Below are positions 19,789 through 32,255 of a stretch of 64,000 bases of DNA, one piece after another (position 1 is the first letter of the stretch; each line of letters starts with the position of its first letter). The stretch lies in contig CACJLJ010000001.1 in the NCBI GenBank assembly GCA_902594235.1, forward strand, positions 124,001 through 188,000. The letters are read 5' to 3'. The translations under genes were made by a program, and so were the position numbers. The stretch is from an uncultured Pelagibacteraceae bacterium (GTDB taxonomy: Bacteria; Pseudomonadota; Alphaproteobacteria; Pelagibacterales; Pelagibacteraceae). The notes under the pieces were generated by a model, which saw only the letters and a list, made by a program, of their open reading frames with translations, was not told the DNA's origin and ran no database searches.

Positions 19789-20856
19789 TTAATAAAATAA
19801 TGCTTTAATAAAAGTTTGTTTAGGCATTTTTAAAATTATTTTAAAATCCTCAAAAAAATTACTTTTATTTGATAGAAATTTTATAACAGTCTTTGGTGAA
19901 GCCTTAAACATCTCAAAGAATATATCGGACATTTTTTCAGGATGATTGTTTAGAACTCGTAAGAAAATATCATCTAAAAATTGATATTTCTTGCTAATTT
20001 CAAACTTTTTACAATTTGAAATATTTTCAAAATTTTTTCTTATAAACTTACTATGTTCTTGAATATTTAGAAAAGTGTAGCCAGTGCTTAATCTTGTCAT
20101 TCCACCAGCAGTCCCAATATTTATTTTATTTTTTTCTTTTTCATTTAAAGGGTGGAAAAGGGGTATTGCACCTTCTTCTTTATAAGTTATTTCATAATTT
20201 TTTAACTTTAGATGTTTTTCAATGTAATCTTTAATTTGAATGTCATAATCTTTTTGGGAGGCATCATTAATTTTTGATAACCAAGTTGTTTCAACTAAGG
20301 CTTTATTTTTTGAATAAGGAAGAGTGTAGAAAAAATGGACACTTTCTCTTTGTTCACAATCAAAATCCATTAGATTGAAAATTCCTTCATCAAAAAAATT
20401 ATCTTTAGTTTTAATTTCAACACCACAAAAATGTTGCCAAAGATTTAAATGATTCTTTTTTATGATTGGTACACTGTTAAAAATGAACGAATTTTTTTTA
20501 TTGATTTCTGAGATATCTTTAAAGAAAGAAATATTATTATTTTTTTTTAATTTATTATTTATTTTTTCGTAAAACAGACCGCTATCAATACTTTGATATG
20601 GATAATCTTTACATTTTAAATAATTAGTTTTACCTGGCACATTAATTGAAAAATTTTCCCAACTTTTTTTAACACAATCGTCAAAGTTATGAGATGTTAC
20701 TTTCCAAAAAGACCATGTTTTGTCTCTTTTATACTTTGGTCTAGGTTCAATAATTGCTAGAGTTTTGTCCTTTAATTTTTCATGAGTCTCTAGTTCATAA
20801 GCAAGTGATAGACCTGCACATCCACCACCGATAATTATATAGTCAAATTCTTTCAT
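19789..20856 (-). CDS. crtY: Lycopene beta-cyclase
   Basis: Flavin-dependent enzyme that cyclises both ends of lycopene to beta-carotene. An N-terminal dinucleotide-binding motif (IIIGGGCAGLSLAYEL) is followed by DKTWSFW, diagnostic for CrtY. GTAGGMTRLSTGYTF, the cyclase C-terminal motif, lies near residues 265-279. The length of 355 aa is slightly shorter than average (about 380). The start overlaps the crtB stop by 14 bases. It sits between phytoene synthase and the carotene-cleaving enzyme, in pathway order. Confidence 0.93.
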   Translation of the reverse strand: MKEFDYIIIGGGCAGLSLAYELETHEKLKDKTLAIIEPRPKYKRDKTWSFWKVTSHNFDDCVKKSWENFSINVPGKTNYLKCKDYPYQSIDSGLFYEKINNKLKKNNNISFFKDISEINKKNSFIFNSVPIIKKNHLNLWQHFCGVEIKTKDNFFDEGIFNLMDFDCEQRESVHFFYTLPYSKNKALVETTWLSKINDASQKDYDIQIKDYIEKHLKLKNYEITYKEEGAIPLFHPLNEKEKNKINIGTAGGMTRLSTGYTFLNIQEHSKFIRKNFENISNCKKFEISKKYQFLDDIFLRVLNNHPEKMSDIFFEMFKASPKTVIKFLSNKSNFFEDFKIILKMPKQTFIKALFY

Positions 20857-21727
20857 CTAAGTCTACTTCCATGCAAATAATTGCATGCTCCTTTTCTCTT
20901 TGATGAGTCTCTATTTCTCTCAAATAAACTAATATTAAATCAAATATAGAAATAATTGAGTGATAAATTTTTTCAAAATTATTCAGATATATCTTTCCTG
21001 ACTTTTCATAATTTCTCATATTACCTTTTTGTAAAATTTTTCGTCCAATCTGTCTGTAAATTCTTCTAGCAACAATTATTGAAAATTTATATCTAAATGG
21101 GATTTTTTGGATAGAGCTAAATGAACTTTCATAAAACAATTCAGCAAGTTTTAAAGTTGCTTGAATATTTTCAAAATCTGGCTTGATATATTCTCTGTTC
21201 ATTTTTTTGTCCTCAATTACATCTCTAGCAATATTTGTTAACTGCATCGCTATACCTAAATCTATTGCTCCTTTTAAAGATCTTCTATCATTTACATTCA
21301 ATATTTTTGACATCATCAAGCCAACTGTTCCAGCAACTCTATATGAATAAATTAACAAGTCTTTTACTGATCTGAAATGTATTTTTTTTTTTAAATCTGA
21401 AGCAACACCATCTATTAAGTCCTCTATTATAATCTTTTTAATTTTATAATTTTCTGCAAGATTAATTATATCTAAAATAATTATTTCATATTCATTAGTT
21501 GAATGTCTATCATTAATATCTAACTTTAGAGAATTTTTAAAAAAAAATTTTATTTTATTAAATTTTTCAATTTTAGAAGCTAAAGAGGATTTCTCATCAG
21601 CTGTATCATCTAGAACTCTGCAAAAAGCATAAAGTTTTGCACAATCTTGGTAAATTTTTTTCGGTAAAAAAAAACCTGCCCAATTGAATGATTTAGCAAA
21701 GATAGCCAGATAATTTTTTTGTGTCAT
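20843..21727 (-). CDS. crtB: Phytoene synthase
   Basis: Condenses two geranylgeranyl diphosphates to phytoene. The two Asp-rich substrate motifs are present: YAFCRVLDDTADE at about residues 28-40, and MQLTNIARDVIED near 166-178 followed by NREYIKPD. The length of 294 aa is typical. The start codon shares one base with the crtI stop (TAATG). The geranylgeranyl diphosphate synthase (crtE) that makes its substrate is not in this window. Confidence 0.95.
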   Translation of the reverse strand: MTQKNYLAIFAKSFNWAGFFLPKKIYQDCAKLYAFCRVLDDTADEKSSLASKIEKFNKIKFFFKNSLKLDINDRHSTNEYEIIILDIINLAENYKIKKIIIEDLIDGVASDLKKKIHFRSVKDLLIYSYRVAGTVGLMMSKILNVNDRRSLKGAIDLGIAMQLTNIARDVIEDKKMNREYIKPDFENIQATLKLAELFYESSFSSIQKIPFRYKFSIIVARRIYRQIGRKILQKGNMRNYEKSGKIYLNNFEKIYHSIISIFDLILVYLREIETHQREKEHAIICMEVDLDERI

Positions 21728-23187
21728 TAAATTATTTTATCTAATACTTTTGCTGATGATAAAACTCCTGGTACACCAGCACCAGGATGTGTGCCAGCTC
21801 CAACAAAATATAATCCGTCATATATCTCAGATTTATTATGAAATCTAAAATAAGCTGATTGTGAAAATTTTGGCTGTATTGAAAAACCAGAACCATATTT
21901 TGTATTAAGATCTTTTTCAAAATAATCAGGTGTTAGATAAAAATCTTCAATTATATTATCTCTTAGGTTAGGCATTAAATCATTTTCCATTTTATCAATT
22001 ACTAAATTTTTCATTTTTTCGCCCTCAATTTTCCAATCTATTTTGGATTGGTTATTAGGAACTGGAACTAAAACATAAAAGCAATCACGTCCTTCTGGTG
22101 CCATTGATTTATCGGTGGCTGATGGTCTGTGAAGATAGTAACTAATATCATTATTTAATTTTTTGTTATCAAATATATCGTCAAGATGTTCTTTATATTT
22201 GTTGCCAAATTTTATTGTGTGGTGTTCCACATTCGAATATGTTTTTTTTGTTCCGAAATAATAAACAAATAAACCCATTGAATATTCCATTCTTTTTTTT
22301 TTCCATTTAAATAAGAATGAATTATTAGCATTTCCGTTTAGCATTTTTTCATAAACTGCAGGTGGATCGGCATTACAAATAACATTTTGAGAATGAACTA
22401 TAGTTAGATCATTTAGTTGTATTCCATCAATTTTATTATTTTTGGTAATTAATTTATTCACTTCATTTCCTTTTATTATTTTTATACCAACTTCATTCAT
22501 TAACTTTTCAAACCCTTTAATTATGTTTCCAGTTCCACCCATAGAATAATGTATCCCCCATTTTTTTTCTAAGTATAAAATTAGTCCATAAATTGATGTT
22601 GTAGTGAATGGATTACCGCCGACTAGTAAAGGGTGCATACTTAACATTCTTCTTAATTTTTCATTTTTTATAAAAGAAGAGACTAATGAATAAACTGATT
22701 TGTAACTTTTAAGTTTTAAAAGCGCTGGTAATTGTTGAATCATTATAAATGGATTGTCGAATGGAATATCAGCAAGTTCTGTAAAACCTTTATCAAAAAT
22801 CTTTTTTGTAAAATTTACTAATTTTTCATAACCAACTACATCTTCTTTACTAATTTTTTCAATTTGTTTTTTCATATCTATTTCATCTCCAGAGTAATTA
22901 AATCTAGTTTTGTCCTCAAAAATGAATTGATACCAAATCTTTAAAGGCCTAAGCTCTATGTAATCTTTTGGATCTTTCTCAAATAATTCAAATAATTCGT
23001 TTATTAAATATGGAGCAGTAATTACAGTCGGTCCACCATCATATGTAAAACCATTTCTTTTGAATACTCTAGCTCTTCCTCCAAGATCTGGATGTTTTTC
23101 AATTAAAGTGACATCATGACCTTTTGCTTTTAGACGAAGTGCAGCAGCTATGCCTCCAAAACCAGACCCAATTACAATTGAATTCAT
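21727..23187 (-). CDS. crtI: Phytoene desaturase (lycopene-forming)
   Basis: FAD enzyme that introduces four double bases-spaced desaturations into phytoene to give lycopene. The N-terminal FAD motif VIGSGFGGIAAALRL and LGGRARVFKRNGFTYDGGPTV are characteristic of CrtI. The C-terminal FAD-binding motif GLYFVGAGTHPGAGVPGVL lies near residues 461-479. The length of 486 aa is typical. It is the first carotenoid gene, 39 bases after atpF, and I see no strong terminator between them. Confidence 0.95.
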   Translation of the reverse strand: MNSIVIGSGFGGIAAALRLKAKGHDVTLIEKHPDLGGRARVFKRNGFTYDGGPTVITAPYLINELFELFEKDPKDYIELRPLKIWYQFIFEDKTRFNYSGDEIDMKKQIEKISKEDVVGYEKLVNFTKKIFDKGFTELADIPFDNPFIMIQQLPALLKLKSYKSVYSLVSSFIKNEKLRRMLSMHPLLVGGNPFTTTSIYGLILYLEKKWGIHYSMGGTGNIIKGFEKLMNEVGIKIIKGNEVNKLITKNNKIDGIQLNDLTIVHSQNVICNADPPAVYEKMLNGNANNSFLFKWKKKRMEYSMGLFVYYFGTKKTYSNVEHHTIKFGNKYKEHLDDIFDNKKLNNDISYYLHRPSATDKSMAPEGRDCFYVLVPVPNNQSKIDWKIEGEKMKNLVIDKMENDLMPNLRDNIIEDFYLTPDYFEKDLNTKYGSGFSIQPKFSQSAYFRFHNKSEIYDGLYFVGAGTHPGAGVPGVLSSAKVLDKII

Positions 23188-25586: not shown

Positions 25587-27983
25587 TTATGCAACCATAC
25601 TCTCTGCTTTTTGTAAATCAACAGCAACAAGCTGGCTTATACCTTTCTCAGGCATAGTCACACCATAAAGTCTATTCATTTTTGACATTGTTAAAGCATG
25701 ATGGGTCACAATGATAAATTTAGTGTTAGTTATTTTTGTTAGCTCATCAAGTAAATTACAGAATCTTGTTACATTGGCATCATCTAATGGAGCATCAACT
25801 TCATCTAAAACACAAATTGGAGACGGGTTGGTTAGAAAAACAGCAAAAACTAAAGATAAAGCTGTTAAAGCCTGCTCTCCACCAGATAGTAGAGTAATAG
25901 ATTGAAGTCTTTTACCAGGTGGACTTACCAGCATTTCTAGCCCAGCTTCGAGTGGATCATCAGAGTCTACCAATTCAAGTTTAGCATTTCCTCCATTAAA
26001 CAATTTAGTATAAACTTCATTAAATTTTCTATTAACTTTTTCGAAAGCATCAAAAAGTCTTTCCCTTCCTTTTTGATTTAATTCGTTAATGCTATCTTTT
26101 AATTTGCTTATTGCAGACACTAAATCTGAGCGATCTTGCTCCATTTTTTTTATCTCAGTTTCATACTTATTTGTTTCTTCATCAGCTTTTAAATTTACCG
26201 AACCTAATTTTTCTCTTTCTTGCTTTTTCTTATCTAATAAATCTTCTTGATCAACTGCATCAGGTAGTTCCTCGATGCCATTAAGATTTGAATTTTCTAA
26301 AATATTTTCTTCATTTAAATTTAACTCTGAACTTATTCTATCAATCAAGTCACTTTTTCTTTTTTTTAAACCTTCAATGGTTGCACCAGAGCTAGCTTTT
26401 CTCTCTCTTATTTGTATTGATTGCTCTTGAATTTCATTAAGTTCAGATCTTAAGGCCTCTATTCTATTATCTGTTTCATCTATAATTTTTTCATTTTCAT
26501 TTTTTTCTTTTTCAGAAATTCTTAAATTTTCTGAAATTTGACCTTTCTTTTCAGCTTGTATTTTTGGTTGATTGTCAAGCTTTTCCAATTGATCATTGAA
26601 TTTGTTTTTTCTTTCTGTAAGTTGACTTACCATTTTTTCGGAATTTGATAATAAATTTTTCCAGCTTTCTATTTCTTTATCTATTATCTTAATTCTTTCA
26701 CTTCGTTTTATAGACTCTCTTTTGATATTTTGATTTTTGCTATAATTTTCAGCATAATTTTCTATACTTTTTTCGAAAATTTCTAGAGCATTTACTGCTT
26801 TATCATTTTGTTTTGATGAAATTAGATTCTTAATATTTTCTATTTCAGTTTTTAACTCTTTTTTGGAATGATTTAAATCTTCATTAGATTGTTTCTCAGT
26901 TTCATAATATTTCGAGTCAATTTCAATAAGATCATTTTTTTCTTCTTTAAGTCTTTTTTCATTCGAATTTGCATCAATAATAATTCCTTTTTCTCTTGAA
27001 ATATCTTCATCTAACGTCTGTAAAGATTTTTTAATATTTTTAATTTCATCTTGAGTTCGAGTATTTTCTTCATCAAGACTTTGGAGTTCTAAATTTAATC
27101 TTTGTATTTTAGAGAGATTTTCAATATTTTTCTCTCTTAATGGTGTAACTTTCTCAATTTCAATTTTAATTTTTTTTTCTAGTTGTGTTATTTTATCGTT
27201 AAAACCAGTCACTTCTAAATCAGCCTCTGTATTTATTTCATTTTCAACTCTTATTTCTTTATCAATTTCAAGTAATTTTAAATAATACAATCCAGCTTCA
27301 ATCTTCTTAATTTCATCAGATATATTTTTGTATTTTGTTGCCTCTTCAGCTTGTTTTTTTAGATTAGCCAATTGCCTTTCTTGTTGTCTTCTTAATTCAT
27401 CGGCTCTCTTAAGATTATTTTCTGCTGCACTTAATCTTAATTCTGCCTCGTGTCTTCGAACATGTAAACCTGAAATACCTGCGGCCTCCTCTAAAATTGC
27501 TCTTCTATCCGTTGGTTTAGCCGTAACTAGTGCTCCAATCCTGCCTTGGCTTATCAAAGACGGTGAATGAGCTCCTGTGGATAAATCTGCAAAAAACATT
27601 TGAGCATCTCTTGCTCTTACCTCTTTGTCATTTATATAAAATTTTGAACCCTTATCTTTTTCGATTTTTCTTCTGATGTTTATTTCGTCTATTTGTTTGT
27701 ACTGACCAGGACCTTGACTATCTTTATTTTCAACAGTGATTGAGACTTCAGCAATATTCTTTGATGTCTTGTTCGAAGTTCCTGAAAAGATAACATCCTC
27801 CATCCCAGAACCTCGCAAACTTTTAGCAGATGTTTCGCCCATAACCCATCTTAGTGATTCCACTATGTTAGATTTTCCACAACCATTAGGCCCAACAATA
27901 CCTGTTAGCCCATCTTCAATTAAGAAATTGGTTCTATCTGCGAAGGATTTGAATCCATTGAGTTGAATTTTTTTAAACTCCAT
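25587..27983 (-). CDS. smc: Chromosome segregation ATPase SMC, short form with no recognisable hinge
   Basis: Condensin ATPase. The N-terminal head has FKSFADRTNF, Walker A GPNGCGKSN (31-39), and the Q-loop/coil start ISGLHVRRHEAELRLSAAE. The C-terminal head has LLSGGEQ at 698 and Walker B VLDEVDAPLDD near 725. Both match alphaproteobacterial SMC closely, including EKLGSVNLKADEE. The chain is only 798 aa, while bacterial SMC is usually about 1150. Between the heads I see only charged coiled coil (about 175-640), with a short break near 383-412. No glycine-rich hinge domain and no Rad50-type CxxC hook are visible. The reading frame is continuous. Upstream neighbours are dsbA-like and dciA, the usual order. 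Confidence 0.93.
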   Translation of the reverse strand: MEFKKIQLNGFKSFADRTNFLIEDGLTGIVGPNGCGKSNIVESLRWVMGETSAKSLRGSGMEDVIFSGTSNKTSKNIAEVSITVENKDSQGPGQYKQIDEINIRRKIEKDKGSKFYINDKEVRARDAQMFFADLSTGAHSPSLISQGRIGALVTAKPTDRRAILEEAAGISGLHVRRHEAELRLSAAENNLKRADELRRQQERQLANLKKQAEEATKYKNISDEIKKIEAGLYYLKLLEIDKEIRVENEINTEADLEVTGFNDKITQLEKKIKIEIEKVTPLREKNIENLSKIQRLNLELQSLDEENTRTQDEIKNIKKSLQTLDEDISREKGIIIDANSNEKRLKEEKNDLIEIDSKYYETEKQSNEDLNHSKKELKTEIENIKNLISSKQNDKAVNALEIFEKSIENYAENYSKNQNIKRESIKRSERIKIIDKEIESWKNLLSNSEKMVSQLTERKNKFNDQLEKLDNQPKIQAEKKGQISENLRISEKEKNENEKIIDETDNRIEALRSELNEIQEQSIQIRERKASSGATIEGLKKRKSDLIDRISSELNLNEENILENSNLNGIEELPDAVDQEDLLDKKKQEREKLGSVNLKADEETNKYETEIKKMEQDRSDLVSAISKLKDSINELNQKGRERLFDAFEKVNRKFNEVYTKLFNGGNAKLELVDSDDPLEAGLEMLVSPPGKRLQSITLLSGGEQALTALSLVFAVFLTNPSPICVLDEVDAPLDDANVTRFCNLLDELTKITNTKFIIVTHHALTMSKMNRLYGVTMPEKGISQLVAVDLQKAESMVA

Positions 27984-27991
27984 AAACTAAC

Positions 27992-28567
27992 TTATATCAG
28001 TTTTTCTAGAGATTTTTTTAAATTTTTATAATTAAGTGTTTTTTCAAACTTTTTGTTATTTATAATAATCGTAGGAGTAGCATTTATCTGAAATTTCTTT
28101 GTTCCCTCGATTCTATCATTTAAAATAAAGTCTTCTATTTTTTTATTTTCAATACATTCATCATAATTAATTTCAAAGCCCTCTTTTTCCAAAAAAATTT
28201 TAAGACTATCATTTATTTGTTCAATAGAGTTTCCTTTTACCCACTTTTGTTGATTTAGATACAAACTTTCTAAAATGTCTAAACTTTTACCTTCATTACA
28301 TTGAGCAACTTTTGATGCATTTAAAGCAGCCAGGTCTAAAGGAAAATGTCTAAATTCTATTTTTGCTAATCCTTTATCAATATAATCTTTTTTAAGTTGT
28401 GGATAAATATTTTTATGAAAATCTGCACAATGACTACAAGTTAAAGACTCATATGCAATAATTACTATTTTAGCATCTTGATTTCCAGATACTATTCTTT
28501 TTGTTTCAGCATTAATATTTGAAATTGAAATAAAAAATAAAGTTAAAATTATTATTATTTTTTTCAT
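27992..28567 (-). CDS. Exported DsbA-family thiol-disulfide oxidoreductase
   Basis: Periplasmic thioredoxin-fold protein. A signal peptide covers about residues 1-20 (ending around ISNINAE). The active site is CSHC within YESLTCSHCADFHKNIYP, near residues 36-53. The cis-Pro loop INATPTIIIN is near 162. The CSHC dipeptide and the fold fit DsbA/BdbD oxidases or ScsC-like isomerases; which partner it has cannot be told. At 191 aa it is normal. It overlaps the dciA stop by four bases, in the dciA-dsbA-smc order common in alphaproteobacteria. Confidence 0.88.
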   Translation of the reverse strand: MKKIIIILTLFFISISNINAETKRIVSGNQDAKIVIIAYESLTCSHCADFHKNIYPQLKKDYIDKGLAKIEFRHFPLDLAALNASKVAQCNEGKSLDILESLYLNQQKWVKGNSIEQINDSLKIFLEKEGFEINYDECIENKKIEDFILNDRIEGTKKFQINATPTIIINNKKFEKTLNYKNLKKSLEKLI

Positions 28568-29052
28568 TGGTTTTTAAAAACTTTTGTTAATTCAATTAGA
28601 GATTTTCTAATTTTTTCATTTTTAACATCATTAATTTTTTTTTGGTAATTATTTTTTGTCACGTTTTTTTTCAAAATATTATCATCTTTAGAAATTTTAA
28701 GTTCTTCTTCAAAACTCGTAAATTTAATCTTTTCTACAACTGTATTTCCAAAAAAATTATTGATCCTATCTATGATTTCTTTTTTTGAATATTCTAAATC
28801 AACCTCATGACCTCTTTTTACCATTATTAGAAGGGTACTAACTCCAAATTTATTTGAATTCTTAAATGATTTTGGGTAACAAAATTTAAAGAGATTTTCT
28901 CCAACTATGTTTTTCCAGTTATTTAAAGTTTCTGAATAAATTTGGCCTCTTTTATTGATAACTTTTTTTATATTTTTTGGCAAAGTGTCTTTTAAGGATC
29001 TTAAACCTTGAATGGAACTAAATCTCTGCTTAGTATTATTTTTATATTGCAT
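28564..29052 (-). CDS. dciA: DciA/DUF721 family protein (probable replicative helicase operator)
   Basis: DciA proteins interact with DnaB and help load the helicase in bacteria without DnaC. The central DUF721 domain is visible: WKNIVGENLFKFCYPKSF near residues 46-63, then a beta segment TLLIMVKRGHEVDLEYSKKEIIDRIN near 74-99. The C-terminal 40 residues are basic and low in complexity. The length is 162 aa. Its ATG is immediately adjacent, back to back, to the mutY ATG. Confidence 0.78.
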   Translation of the reverse strand: MQYKNNTKQRFSSIQGLRSLKDTLPKNIKKVINKRGQIYSETLNNWKNIVGENLFKFCYPKSFKNSNKFGVSTLLIMVKRGHEVDLEYSKKEIIDRINNFFGNTVVEKIKFTSFEEELKISKDDNILKKNVTKNNYQKKINDVKNEKIRKSLIELTKVFKNQ

Positions 29053-30033: not shown

Positions 30034-31172
30034 TGAAAAAGATTGGCATTATTGGAGCTGGTATTTCAGGACTATTTATTGCTAATTTATTTAAAAGAAA
30101 TTCAAATTATCAAATTACAGTTTTTGAAAAAAACCATGCGATTGATTTAGATGAAGGTTATGGAATTCAGTTATCAGTAAATAGTGTGAAGCTTTTGAAT
30201 CACATTGGATTTGACAAATTTAAAGATGATAAAAAGTTTAATCCAGATAAAATAAATTTCTATTCTATTAAAAGCTCTAATAAGATATGTGATTTGGATA
30301 TTTCAGAATTTAATTCGCAAGAATGTAAATATACAACTTTGAAAAGGTCTGACCTAGTTAATTTTTTAATGATGGGTTTAGAGGAGTCAATTAAAACCAA
30401 TCATAATATTTCGAAGATAGATCAAGAAAATAAAAAAATTAAACTTGATTTTGAAAACAATGAAATTTTTGAATGTGATTATTTGATAATATCAGATGGA
30501 GTTTTTTCAAAAAGCAAAAGTCTTATCTCAAATAATCAAACTCAACCAAGGTTTAATAAAATGTTGGCTATAAGAGGTGCGATACCTAATTCACAAAAAA
30601 TTGATCGTAAGAATATTTCGTTGTTTTTAGGTCCTGATTTTCATCAGGTAATTTATCCTGTAAATCCTAGTGGAGATTTAAATTTTATAGCGATATTAAA
30701 ATATAACCTTTCAATTAATGAACAAAAAAACCATTTGTTATTCAATGATGATAATTTTATCAAAAAAATTTTAGATGATATTCCATTAGAGATGAGAGAA
30801 TTTCTAAATGAAATTAAGCAATTAAAAATATTCCCAGTATTTATTAGCAATAATTTTTTAAAATTAAAAAATGATAATGTTCATTTTATAGGTGACGCCC
30901 TTTTTGCTTTTCCTCCATCATTTGCCCAGGGCGCATCACAGTCAATAGAGAGTGCCTACGAATTATTTAAAAATATTGAAAACAAAACAGAAAATATTTA
31001 TCTTAAAAATAGAGTTAGTAAAATTAGAATGGTTAATAACAGATCAAAATTTAATCAATTTGCATTCCATTTATCTAATCCTTTAACTACATTTTTAAGA
31101 AATATTATCTTGAAAAAATTGGTTAAAAATAAAATGTTTTTAGAAAGCTATCTTGGTAAAATTTATAGATAA
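30033..31172 (+). CDS. FAD-dependent aromatic-ring hydroxylase-like monooxygenase
   Basis: Flavoprotein of the PHBH/UbiH superfamily. The FAD Rossmann motif GIIGAGISGLFIANLF is at residues 4-19. The middle motif is DYLIISDGVFSKSKS near 149. The FAD-ribityl motif HFIGDALFAFPPSFAQGAS is near 285. The length of 379 aa is typical. The substrate is not evident: a ubiquinone-ring hydroxylase or a salicylate/kynurenine-type enzyme is possible. It follows mutY with a one-base overlap. Its 3' end overlaps ccrM by ten bases on the opposite strand. Confidence 0.8.
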   Translation: MKKIGIIGAGISGLFIANLFKRNSNYQITVFEKNHAIDLDEGYGIQLSVNSVKLLNHIGFDKFKDDKKFNPDKINFYSIKSSNKICDLDISEFNSQECKYTTLKRSDLVNFLMMGLEESIKTNHNISKIDQENKKIKLDFENNEIFECDYLIISDGVFSKSKSLISNNQTQPRFNKMLAIRGAIPNSQKIDRKNISLFLGPDFHQVIYPVNPSGDLNFIAILKYNLSINEQKNHLLFNDDNFIKKILDDIPLEMREFLNEIKQLKIFPVFISNNFLKLKNDNVHFIGDALFAFPPSFAQGASQSIESAYELFKNIENKTENIYLKNRVSKIRMVNNRSKFNQFAFHLSNPLTTFLRNIILKKLVKNKMFLESYLGKIYR

Positions 31173-32242
31173 CTTTTATCAACAAGGAATTTTTGTCTTA
31201 AATTATCTATTGGCACAAAAGAACTGCCTAGTTTAAAATGCCAATAAGTCCATCCGTTACAGCTATCAGCACCTAAAATTGTAGCTGCTACTTTATGAAT
31301 TGAGCCTTCAGTTTGGGCATGTTTAATACTGCCGTCAGCCATTATTTTTGCACTAATTTTCCTCTTATTATCAAAAATAGTGGTACCAGGTTTAATAATT
31401 CCTAATTCAACTAATGAGCCAAAAGGTATTCGTGGTTTTGATCTATTGTTCTTAAGTGTATCTAAATAATGATCCTCTATAGGTTTTGTTTTCTGTAATC
31501 TTTGTTCTGCAGCTTTGAAATAGTTTTTTTCTTTTTCAACTCCGTAATAATTTCTACCCAGTTTTTTTGCAACTGTTGCCGTTGTTCCTGATCCTAAAAA
31601 AGGATCTAAAATTAAATCGTTTTTATTTGAAGTTGCTAATAAAATTCGGTGAAGTAAAGCCTCTGGTTTTTGGGTAGAATGCACTTTTTTACCGTTCTTT
31701 TTTAGTCTTTCAGAACCATTACAAATTGGCAAATCCCAGTTAGATCTCATCTGAAGATCGTCATTTAAACACTTTAAGGATTGATAATTAAAAGTGTACT
31801 TTGATTTTTCGGACTTAGATGCCCAAATTAAAGTTTCATGGGCGTTCGTAAAACGTGTTCCTCTAAAATTTGGCATGGGATTTTTTTTATTCCAAATGAC
31901 GTCATTTAAAATCCAAAAACCCAAATTTTGAATAGCTGTACCAACTCTAAAAATATTGTGATAACTACCAATTACCCAGATAGCTCCATTTTTTTTTAAA
32001 ATTCTTTTACATTCACTTAACCATGAATAAGTAAAGTCATCGTACTTTTTAAAATTTTCAAATTTATCCCATTTATCTTTTACAGCACTAACCTTAGATC
32101 TATCAGGTCTTGTTAATTCACTTTTAAGTTGTAAGTTGTATGGAGGGTCAGCAAAAATTAAATCAAAAGTTTCATCAGGAATTTTTTTTAGTTCATCTAA
32201 AATATCACCATTAACTAATTTATTTTTAAAATCAAAATTCAT
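31163..32242 (-). CDS. ccrM: Cell-cycle DNA adenine methyltransferase CcrM (GANTC)
   Basis: Orphan beta-class N6-adenine methyltransferase that methylates GANTC. The catalytic DPPY (in LIFADPPYNLQL) is at residues 32-35. WVIGSYHNIFRVG, ILNDVIWNKKNPMPNFRGTRF and the SAM motif LDPFLGSGTTATVAKKLGR follow. The C-terminal CcrM-specific domain is present, with IPFGSLVELGIIKPG and NGWTYWHFKLG, so it is CcrM rather than a restriction-linked enzyme. I start at MNFDFKN, which matches Caulobacter CcrM. A TTG 42 bases upstream coincides with the likely -35 box. No restriction gene is nearby. Confidence 0.95.
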   Translation of the reverse strand: MNFDFKNKLVNGDILDELKKIPDETFDLIFADPPYNLQLKSELTRPDRSKVSAVKDKWDKFENFKKYDDFTYSWLSECKRILKKNGAIWVIGSYHNIFRVGTAIQNLGFWILNDVIWNKKNPMPNFRGTRFTNAHETLIWASKSEKSKYTFNYQSLKCLNDDLQMRSNWDLPICNGSERLKKNGKKVHSTQKPEALLHRILLATSNKNDLILDPFLGSGTTATVAKKLGRNYYGVEKEKNYFKAAEQRLQKTKPIEDHYLDTLKNNRSKPRIPFGSLVELGIIKPGTTIFDNKRKISAKIMADGSIKHAQTEGSIHKVAATILGADSCNGWTYWHFKLGSSFVPIDNLRQKFLVDKSYL

Positions 32243-32255
32243 TTTATAAAAATAA

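Follow-up and report, generated by a model that had tools for sequence, protein, structure and literature searches.

Our study argues that the smc gene in a 64,000-nucleotide stretch of DNA from an uncultured Pelagibacteraceae bacterium (hereafter the window) encodes a genuine Smc protein of 798 aa that has short arms and complete ATPase motifs and carries neither a hinge nor a zinc hook, a conclusion supported by sequence comparison and by predicted models. On the same grounds, the loss of the hinge is common to every full-length Smc of the Pelagibacterales (SAR11) that we tested. SAR11 is among the commonest bacterial groups of the ocean, its cells combine a small genome with slow growth, and Smc is the motor protein that organizes DNA, whose hinge is regarded as one of the features that define SMC proteins. 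The SAR11 Smc offers a natural test of which parts an SMC complex needs for loop extrusion, and of whether the bypass of obstacles is dispensable in a small-genome, slow-growing cell.

The reading frame of smc, described beforehand as uninterrupted, was unbroken over its whole length on ORF inspection (Table 1). The preliminary description had also claimed complete heads with intact motifs, and in an alignment of 51 rows (the window Smc and 50 of its 80 named relatives) the Walker A, signature, and Walker B motifs were indeed invariant. Against TIGR02168, the NCBIfam equivalog model of bacterial Smc, the protein scored 695.2 bits for a cut-off of 567.35, versus 43.2 bits for the best Rad50 model, whose cut-off is 1000 (best 25 of 38 NCBIfam families). 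No RecN model appears among these 25 families. The Pfam matches were solely to ATPase models, SMC_N among them, and the top sequence matches among solved structures were Smc heads. Moreover, the window Smc was the sole match to itself in its own genome (16 of 24 candidates scored), and the CxxC zinc hook, already reported to be missing, was found in none of 139 SAR11 locus translations, some of which represent two loci of one gene.

Table 1. Features of smc and of the genes beside it, in window coordinates
Feature	Position	Strand	Basis
smc, hingeless Smc of 798 aa	25587..27983 (incl. stop codon)	-	ORF; Pfam, NCBIfam, alignment
ATPase head, N-terminal half, residues 1-165	27489..27983	-	Pfam SMC_N / AAA_23; boundary estimated
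Walker A GPNGCGKSN, residues 31-39	27867..27893	-	Invariant in 51 aligned rows
N-terminal coiled-coil arm, residues 166-389	26817..27488	-	Model helix 157-389; outer part high confidence
Variable tip, residues 371-409	26757..26873	-	Alignment, conservation, dN/dS
Predicted helical-hairpin turn replacing the hinge, residues 390-392	26808..26816	-	Predicted models
C-terminal coiled-coil arm and joint, residues 393-640	26064..26807	-	Alignment, models; head boundary estimated
ATPase head, C-terminal half, residues 641-798	25590..26063	-	Pfam, alignment, structure matches; boundary estimated
ABC signature LLSGGEQ, residues 698-704	25872..25892	-	Invariant in 51 aligned rows
Walker B / D-loop PICVLDEVDAPLDD, residues 722-735	25779..25820	-	Contains ..VLDEVD..; invariant in 51 rows
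Thioredoxin-fold gene between smc and dciA	27992..28567	-	Pfam Thioredoxin_4
dciA	28564..29052	-	Pfam DciA

Three normal alphaproteobacterial Smc measure 1152 to 1154 aa, so that about 355 aa are missing from the window Smc, in agreement with the shortfall of about 350 residues first estimated. When the protein was aligned with the 1152-aa Smc, 352 of the 354 missing residues fell between residues ~380 and ~761 of the latter. Up to residue 358 (canonical 359) the alignment is gapless, as it is from ~410 nearly to the C terminus (441 being canonical 793 and 475 canonical 827), the placement of ~29 tip residues between these blocks being uncertain. As judged from this alignment, the lost block is the outer arms together with the hinge, which bears out the earlier view that both arms are shortened. 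The tip at residues 371 to 409 is the site of the outer arms and hinge in hinge-bearing Smc, and also the site of 59 extra residues in the 857-aa relatives. Arms shortened at this position also occur in two further alphaproteobacterial families, f27 (865 aa) and f122 (882 aa); like SAR11, these families have lost the outer arms, and their lengths are near those of the longer SAR11 forms (857 to 881 aa), but they retain the alphaproteobacterial hinge. Hence, a short arm alone need not mean hinge loss. Shortened Smc arms with the hinge retained were observed in small-genome alphaproteobacteria (L091 from G195, 882 aa; L092 from G085, 865 aa; G276; and G345).

The AlphaFold2 model of the whole chain (mean pLDDT of 63.9, pTM of 0.29) is informative for the arm and tip only, since the heads were poorly modeled; it predicts a helix over residues 157 to 389, a turn, and a helix running from 393 to 470 and beyond. 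Modeling of the fragment 300 to 500 with 60 sequences gave a plain helical hairpin (mean pLDDT of 92.2) with a three-residue turn at 390 to 392, and no globular domain lay between the arms in the predicted models. Thus, the brief break in the coiled coil that had been placed at about residues 383 to 412 is present, but its extent in the models is that of the three-residue turn. A Foldseek search with the tip model returned no PDB match at an E value of ≤0.001; the best one was an arm segment of an archaeal Smc, and chemoreceptor hairpins were similar in shape. Since long coiled coils resemble many things, we draw no claim from these matches.

The Pfam SMC_hinge model matched neither the window Smc nor anything else in its own genome, and no hinge match appeared at residues 350 to 450, the region singled out beforehand. 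In the genomes of 61 relatives, this model gave no match above its cut-off, and weak matches below it were seen in four, on contigs other than that of the Smc match. Taken alone, the Pfam hinge model says little in this class, since no more than 144 of 289 alphaproteobacterial genomes score above its cut-off, and for this reason we built a class-specific hinge model with controls, trained on 12 alphaproteobacterial Smc. This model scored 71.7 to 135.4 bits on 10 hinge-bearing Smc rows, four of which (L059, L060, L070, and L089; 71.7 to 124.1 bits) stood outside the training, while the other six came from the training rows themselves or from second loci of genes in the training set. Over 37 Pelagibacterales Smc, the top score was 6.6 bits, and 20 further Pelagibacterales translations (13 genes) gave at most 2.5 bits, versus 71.7 to 109.8 bits for three controls; the rows scored span all nine Pelagibacterales genera. 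Applied to 47 whole genomes, the hinge profile was positive in 21 of 24 alphaproteobacterial genomes outside the Pelagibacterales (the misses being G064, G289, and G308) and had no match in 22 of 23 Pelagibacterales genomes. The single weak match, of 19.3 bits (E value of 0.0014), was in the own genome of the window Smc, where a split-off hinge gene was considered as a candidate; it is an unrelated 143-aa ORF with CxxC pairs near its start, and we judged it a chance match. Altogether, the Pfam search, the class-specific model, and the predicted hairpin agree with the claim that the hinge domain is missing.

A hinge remnant within the tip was likewise considered and rejected: hhalign comparison of the 798-aa, 857-aa, and f2-type tips with the alphaproteobacterial hinge gave probabilities of 0.4 to 2.2%, for 99.7% in a positive control that compared two parts of the hinge set. 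In the second Pelagibacterales family (L035 to L042), a tip motif, EVEGYDD..W..F..KFY..L, is conserved with small changes at about residues 415 to 450. For this f2 motif, hhalign detected no hinge homology, and given these probabilities it is not established as a hinge remnant.

The named relatives of the window Smc belong to Pelagibacteraceae, Pelagibacter, and Pelagibacterales, with 84 to 90% identity, and all 80 are exactly 798 aa long, although this sample, the best 80 of 535, leans toward the 798-aa form. In the first set of relatives, the 26 full-length Smc of the own genus came in two lengths only, 798 aa (9 proteins) and 857 aa (17 proteins); omitted from this count were the hinge-search loci L001 to L004, two loci with broken frames (L010 and L015), and two cut by contig ends (L031 and L034). 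The second Pelagibacterales family comprises eight proteins of 862 to 864 aa. An Smc match was present in 54 of the 61 relatives' genomes, a raw tally of 56 having included G006 and G025, whose weak matches (E value of ~5e-4) in frames of 263 to 264 aa were taken for ABC transporters. Across the order, with five candidates scored per genome, 183 of 198 genomes had an Smc match, all nine genera being represented, and for the 15 genomes left over, a lack of match at five candidates each does not imply that the gene is absent. Among the matches listed, the frames measured 798 to 864 aa except for two cut at contig ends, and one frame (G397) had an internal stop. In 11 genomes from five genera, a final round of searching found Smc of 800 to 881 aa. 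Moreover, the 11 genomes assembled as a single contig (G012, G143, G235, G311, G349 to G353, G355, and G445) all have an Smc match, with a frame of 802 to 891 aa in ten of them. The Smc sampled from all nine genera are hingeless and 798 to 881 aa long, and the deletion, first described for one protein, proved common to the full-length SAR11 Smc tested. In genus g224, an 800-aa Smc (L198, from G496) is 73% identical to the window Smc, while other members of that genus have, among the matches listed, frames of 814 to 819 aa with 61 to 63% identity; from its sequence, L198 looks like a case of smc exchange between genera.

Outside the order, we turned to 80 alphaproteobacterial genomes without a Pfam hinge match, with at most 12 candidates scored in each. 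Eighteen had an Smc match at an E value of 1e-15; three of these are SAR11, three have Smc fragments only (G074, G216, and G249), and in twelve (G085, G086, G122, G160, G172, G192, G195, G248, G267, G269, G317, and G333) the hinge is present as judged by our own models or by the training alignment. The other 62 gave no Smc match at that threshold, which, with 12 or fewer candidates scored in each, does not imply that the gene is absent. In this sample of 80 genomes, no hingeless Smc was seen outside the Pelagibacterales.

The selective constraint on smc was estimated from 32 nonoverlapping pairs among the 80 named relatives, the two head halves giving dN/dS values of 0.03 and 0.02, the arms 0.05 and 0.06, and the tip 0.19. 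These ratios indicate strong purifying selection on smc, with the weakest constraint at the tip. Residues 371 to 409 are also the least conserved arm window of that length, and both the length and the sequence of the tip vary between genera, which argues against a conserved dimer interface at the tip. A conserved belt just below the tip was considered as a new dimer surface, residues 336 to 370 being better conserved than 97% of equal arm windows (15 rows picked from 34). The facing stretch, 410 to 446, is unexceptional (22% of arm windows score as high), parts of the belt align with hinge-bearing Smc, and the candidate was rejected.

The history of the short tip itself appears complex. When the tip was excluded, a single clade of the 16 798-aa rows among 23 others was rejected (AU P value of 5e-9), in a test that presumes a group named beforehand. 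Within genus g1, the 798-aa form then fell into two separate clades among the 857-aa rows (L016 to L033 and L063), one made of L005 to L009, L061, L104, L120, L140, L163, L177, and L183 and the other of L011 to L014. The tip columns alone unite all 16 of the 798-aa rows (95/91), and the number of changes needed for the 798-aa form was two by the N-half and near-tip columns and five by the C-half columns. From these sequence comparisons, short-tract recombination or the same 59-aa loss occurring twice by convergence are both possible origins of the short tip.

The partners of Smc were looked for in the own genome (G000), and scpA and scpB were both found, intact and adjacent on contig C2, with frames of 246 and 229 aa above the Pfam cut-offs; insofar as these partners are kept, the proposal of a minimal condensin stands. 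Among the 61 relatives' genomes, ScpA was found in 45 and ScpB above its cut-off in 47. ParB was found in 17 of 21 genomes searched and had no match in the 12 contigs of the own genome, where its gene possibly lies within a contig gap. Two parS-like sites were found, with 2 mismatches each, for none in the reversed control.

We propose, as a reading that is probably right, that the window Smc is the Smc ortholog within a Smc-ScpA-ScpB condensin that is ordinary in other respects, and that this condensin would work as a hinge-less, core-only complex closed at its far end by the hairpin or by contact between arms. In the Pelagibacterales ancestor or earlier, both arms would have lost their outer part, the hinge would have disappeared entirely, and a short helical hairpin would have come to connect the two arm helices. 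Because the heads and inner arms are under strong selection, ATP-driven head engagement, DNA clamping, and bridging by the kleisin would be expected to proceed as usual. With the hinge gone, contact between the two hairpins, or between the inner arms along their length, would close the far end of the ring. The outcome would be a short core-only loop extruder that lacks both a hinge gate for obstacles and arms long enough to thread them; its arms would measure ~33 to 37 nm by our own estimate from residue counts, versus 49 nm in Bacillus subtilis, as given in the available text of PMC5526789.

Lacking a hinge, the complex could also fail to dimerize or have an unclosed far end. More boldly, the chromosomes of SAR11 may run on a natural core-only condensin with no far-end dimerization domain at all, whether as a clamp that stays open or as hairpins that pair loosely. 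We consider this rather unlikely; if true, Smc could function in a free-living cell without a hinge gate and without a firmly closed ring. The stricter version, a working condensin subunit whose two chains meet at the heads alone, through ScpA and the engagement of the heads, seems to us unlikely. In its favor, the model predicts a bare hairpin at the tip, which is the poorest conserved stretch of the arms and varies in length and sequence between genera, but in the available text of PMC12647877 the JET core opened at its far end by DTT lost DNA cleavage, from which its authors infer that a closed ring is needed. A further possibility, that another protein bridges the tips of the two hairpins as the hinge would, is quite improbable. 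The sole point in its favor is that some closure is expected, against which the tip lacks the conservation of a docking site and no hinge-like gene was found in the own genome by Pfam or, apart from the one weak match judged to be chance, by the hinge profile.

The hairpin with no SMC hinge recalls the arms of Rad50 and RecN, and one may ask whether this Smc has left condensin work to become a repair factor similar to Rad50/SbcC or RecN. We hold this to be very improbable, as the protein has no second Smc match beside it in its genome at the 16 of 24 candidates scored, passes the Smc cut-off at 695 bits while reaching 43 of the 1000 bits set for Rad50, has no CxxC, and retains scpA and scpB. 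An artefact of assembly or annotation, or a gene in decay, is hardly credible: broken frames do occur in two relatives' copies dropped before counting (L010 and L015), as does the internal stop in G397 among the matches listed, but the length is identical in all 80 named relatives (the best 80 of 535), each of the 11 single-contig genomes has an Smc match, and dN/dS is low. An assembly error as the cause of the deletion, a doubt raised at the outset, is ruled out by the same length in these 80 further genomes. Altogether, we retain the core-only Smc-ScpAB condensin with a closed far end as the best explanation.

Compared with the Smc of the alphaproteobacterial and B. subtilis Smc-ScpAB (TIGR02168), the SAR11 Smc has colinear and conserved heads and inner arms and has scpA and scpB in its genome, but it lacks the hinge and outer arms, with 798 aa versus ~1150. 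Rad50/SbcC, as also described in PMC12153180, shares with it ABC heads and an antiparallel coiled-coil arm with no SMC hinge, but the SAR11 protein has no CxxC and falls far below the Rad50 cut-offs. In the portions of PMC12153180 available (Sussfeld et al., 2025), a "hinge-less" SMC with no CxxC is described from a marine clade annotated as Actinomycetes, forming a monophyletic clade near the base of the actinobacterial SMC. Both cases thus concern ocean bacteria and an SMC family protein with neither hinge nor CxxC; they differ in phylum, and the likeness is one of description only, the ScpA/ScpB context of the Actinomycetes protein not being given in those portions. From the different phylum we infer a separate origin, and if the loss in Actinomycetes (PMC12153180, as available) proves separate, hinge loss would have happened more than once among ocean bacteria.

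The main text of PMC12153180 contains neither "SAR11" nor "Pelagibacter". According to its available methods, 80% mutual coverage with the seed sequences was required, so that a 798-aa chain would probably be missed against a 1150-aa seed. Among the matches listed, we found no prior report of a hinge-less SAR11 Smc in the open-licence literature; thus, hinge-less SMC are known from marine Actinomycetes, and the SAR11 case is apparently unreported in the literature searched.

Functional precedents come from engineered complexes. In the available text of PMC12647877, the elbow-to-hinge segment of JetC in the Wadjet complex was swapped for a nine-residue linker, and the resulting hinge-less core, its dimer closed by an elbow disulfide, still cleaved plasmids (the readout of loop extrusion), while obstacle bypass was lost and DTT abolished cleavage. 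The engineered core and the SAR11 Smc are alike in lacking the hinge-side arm segment and keeping the core, but the former is closed by an added cysteine cross-link, whereas the latter is natural and its closure conjectural. The same text presents the hinge as a gate that lets obstacles pass, as shown for Wadjet with supporting B. subtilis mutants, and states that arms tend to be longer in SMC complexes that have no hinge channel, a trend to which the SAR11 Smc, with its hinge lost and its arms shortened, runs contrary. In B. subtilis, as read in the accessible part of PMC5344682, the Smc hinge can be replaced by an unrelated dimerization domain, cells with the Rad50 zinc hook in its place grow normally on rich medium, and arm lengths compatible with viability show a 91-aa periodicity; hook and hinge are called interchangeable in the part of PMC6969161 available. 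The JET core and the B. subtilis hinge swaps make a hinge-less mechanism plausible for SAR11.

As to the genes around smc, dciA, first described as adjacent, is nearby, but the thioredoxin-fold gene intervenes (Table 1). The window also holds an N6/N4 DNA methylase with a RAMA domain at 31163 to 32251 (minus strand), which we take to be CcrM-like, and, at 19789 to 23187 (minus strand), a row of carotenoid genes comprising a lycopene cyclase, a member of the squalene/phytoene synthase family, and an amine-oxidoreductase family gene that is desaturase-like by its position.
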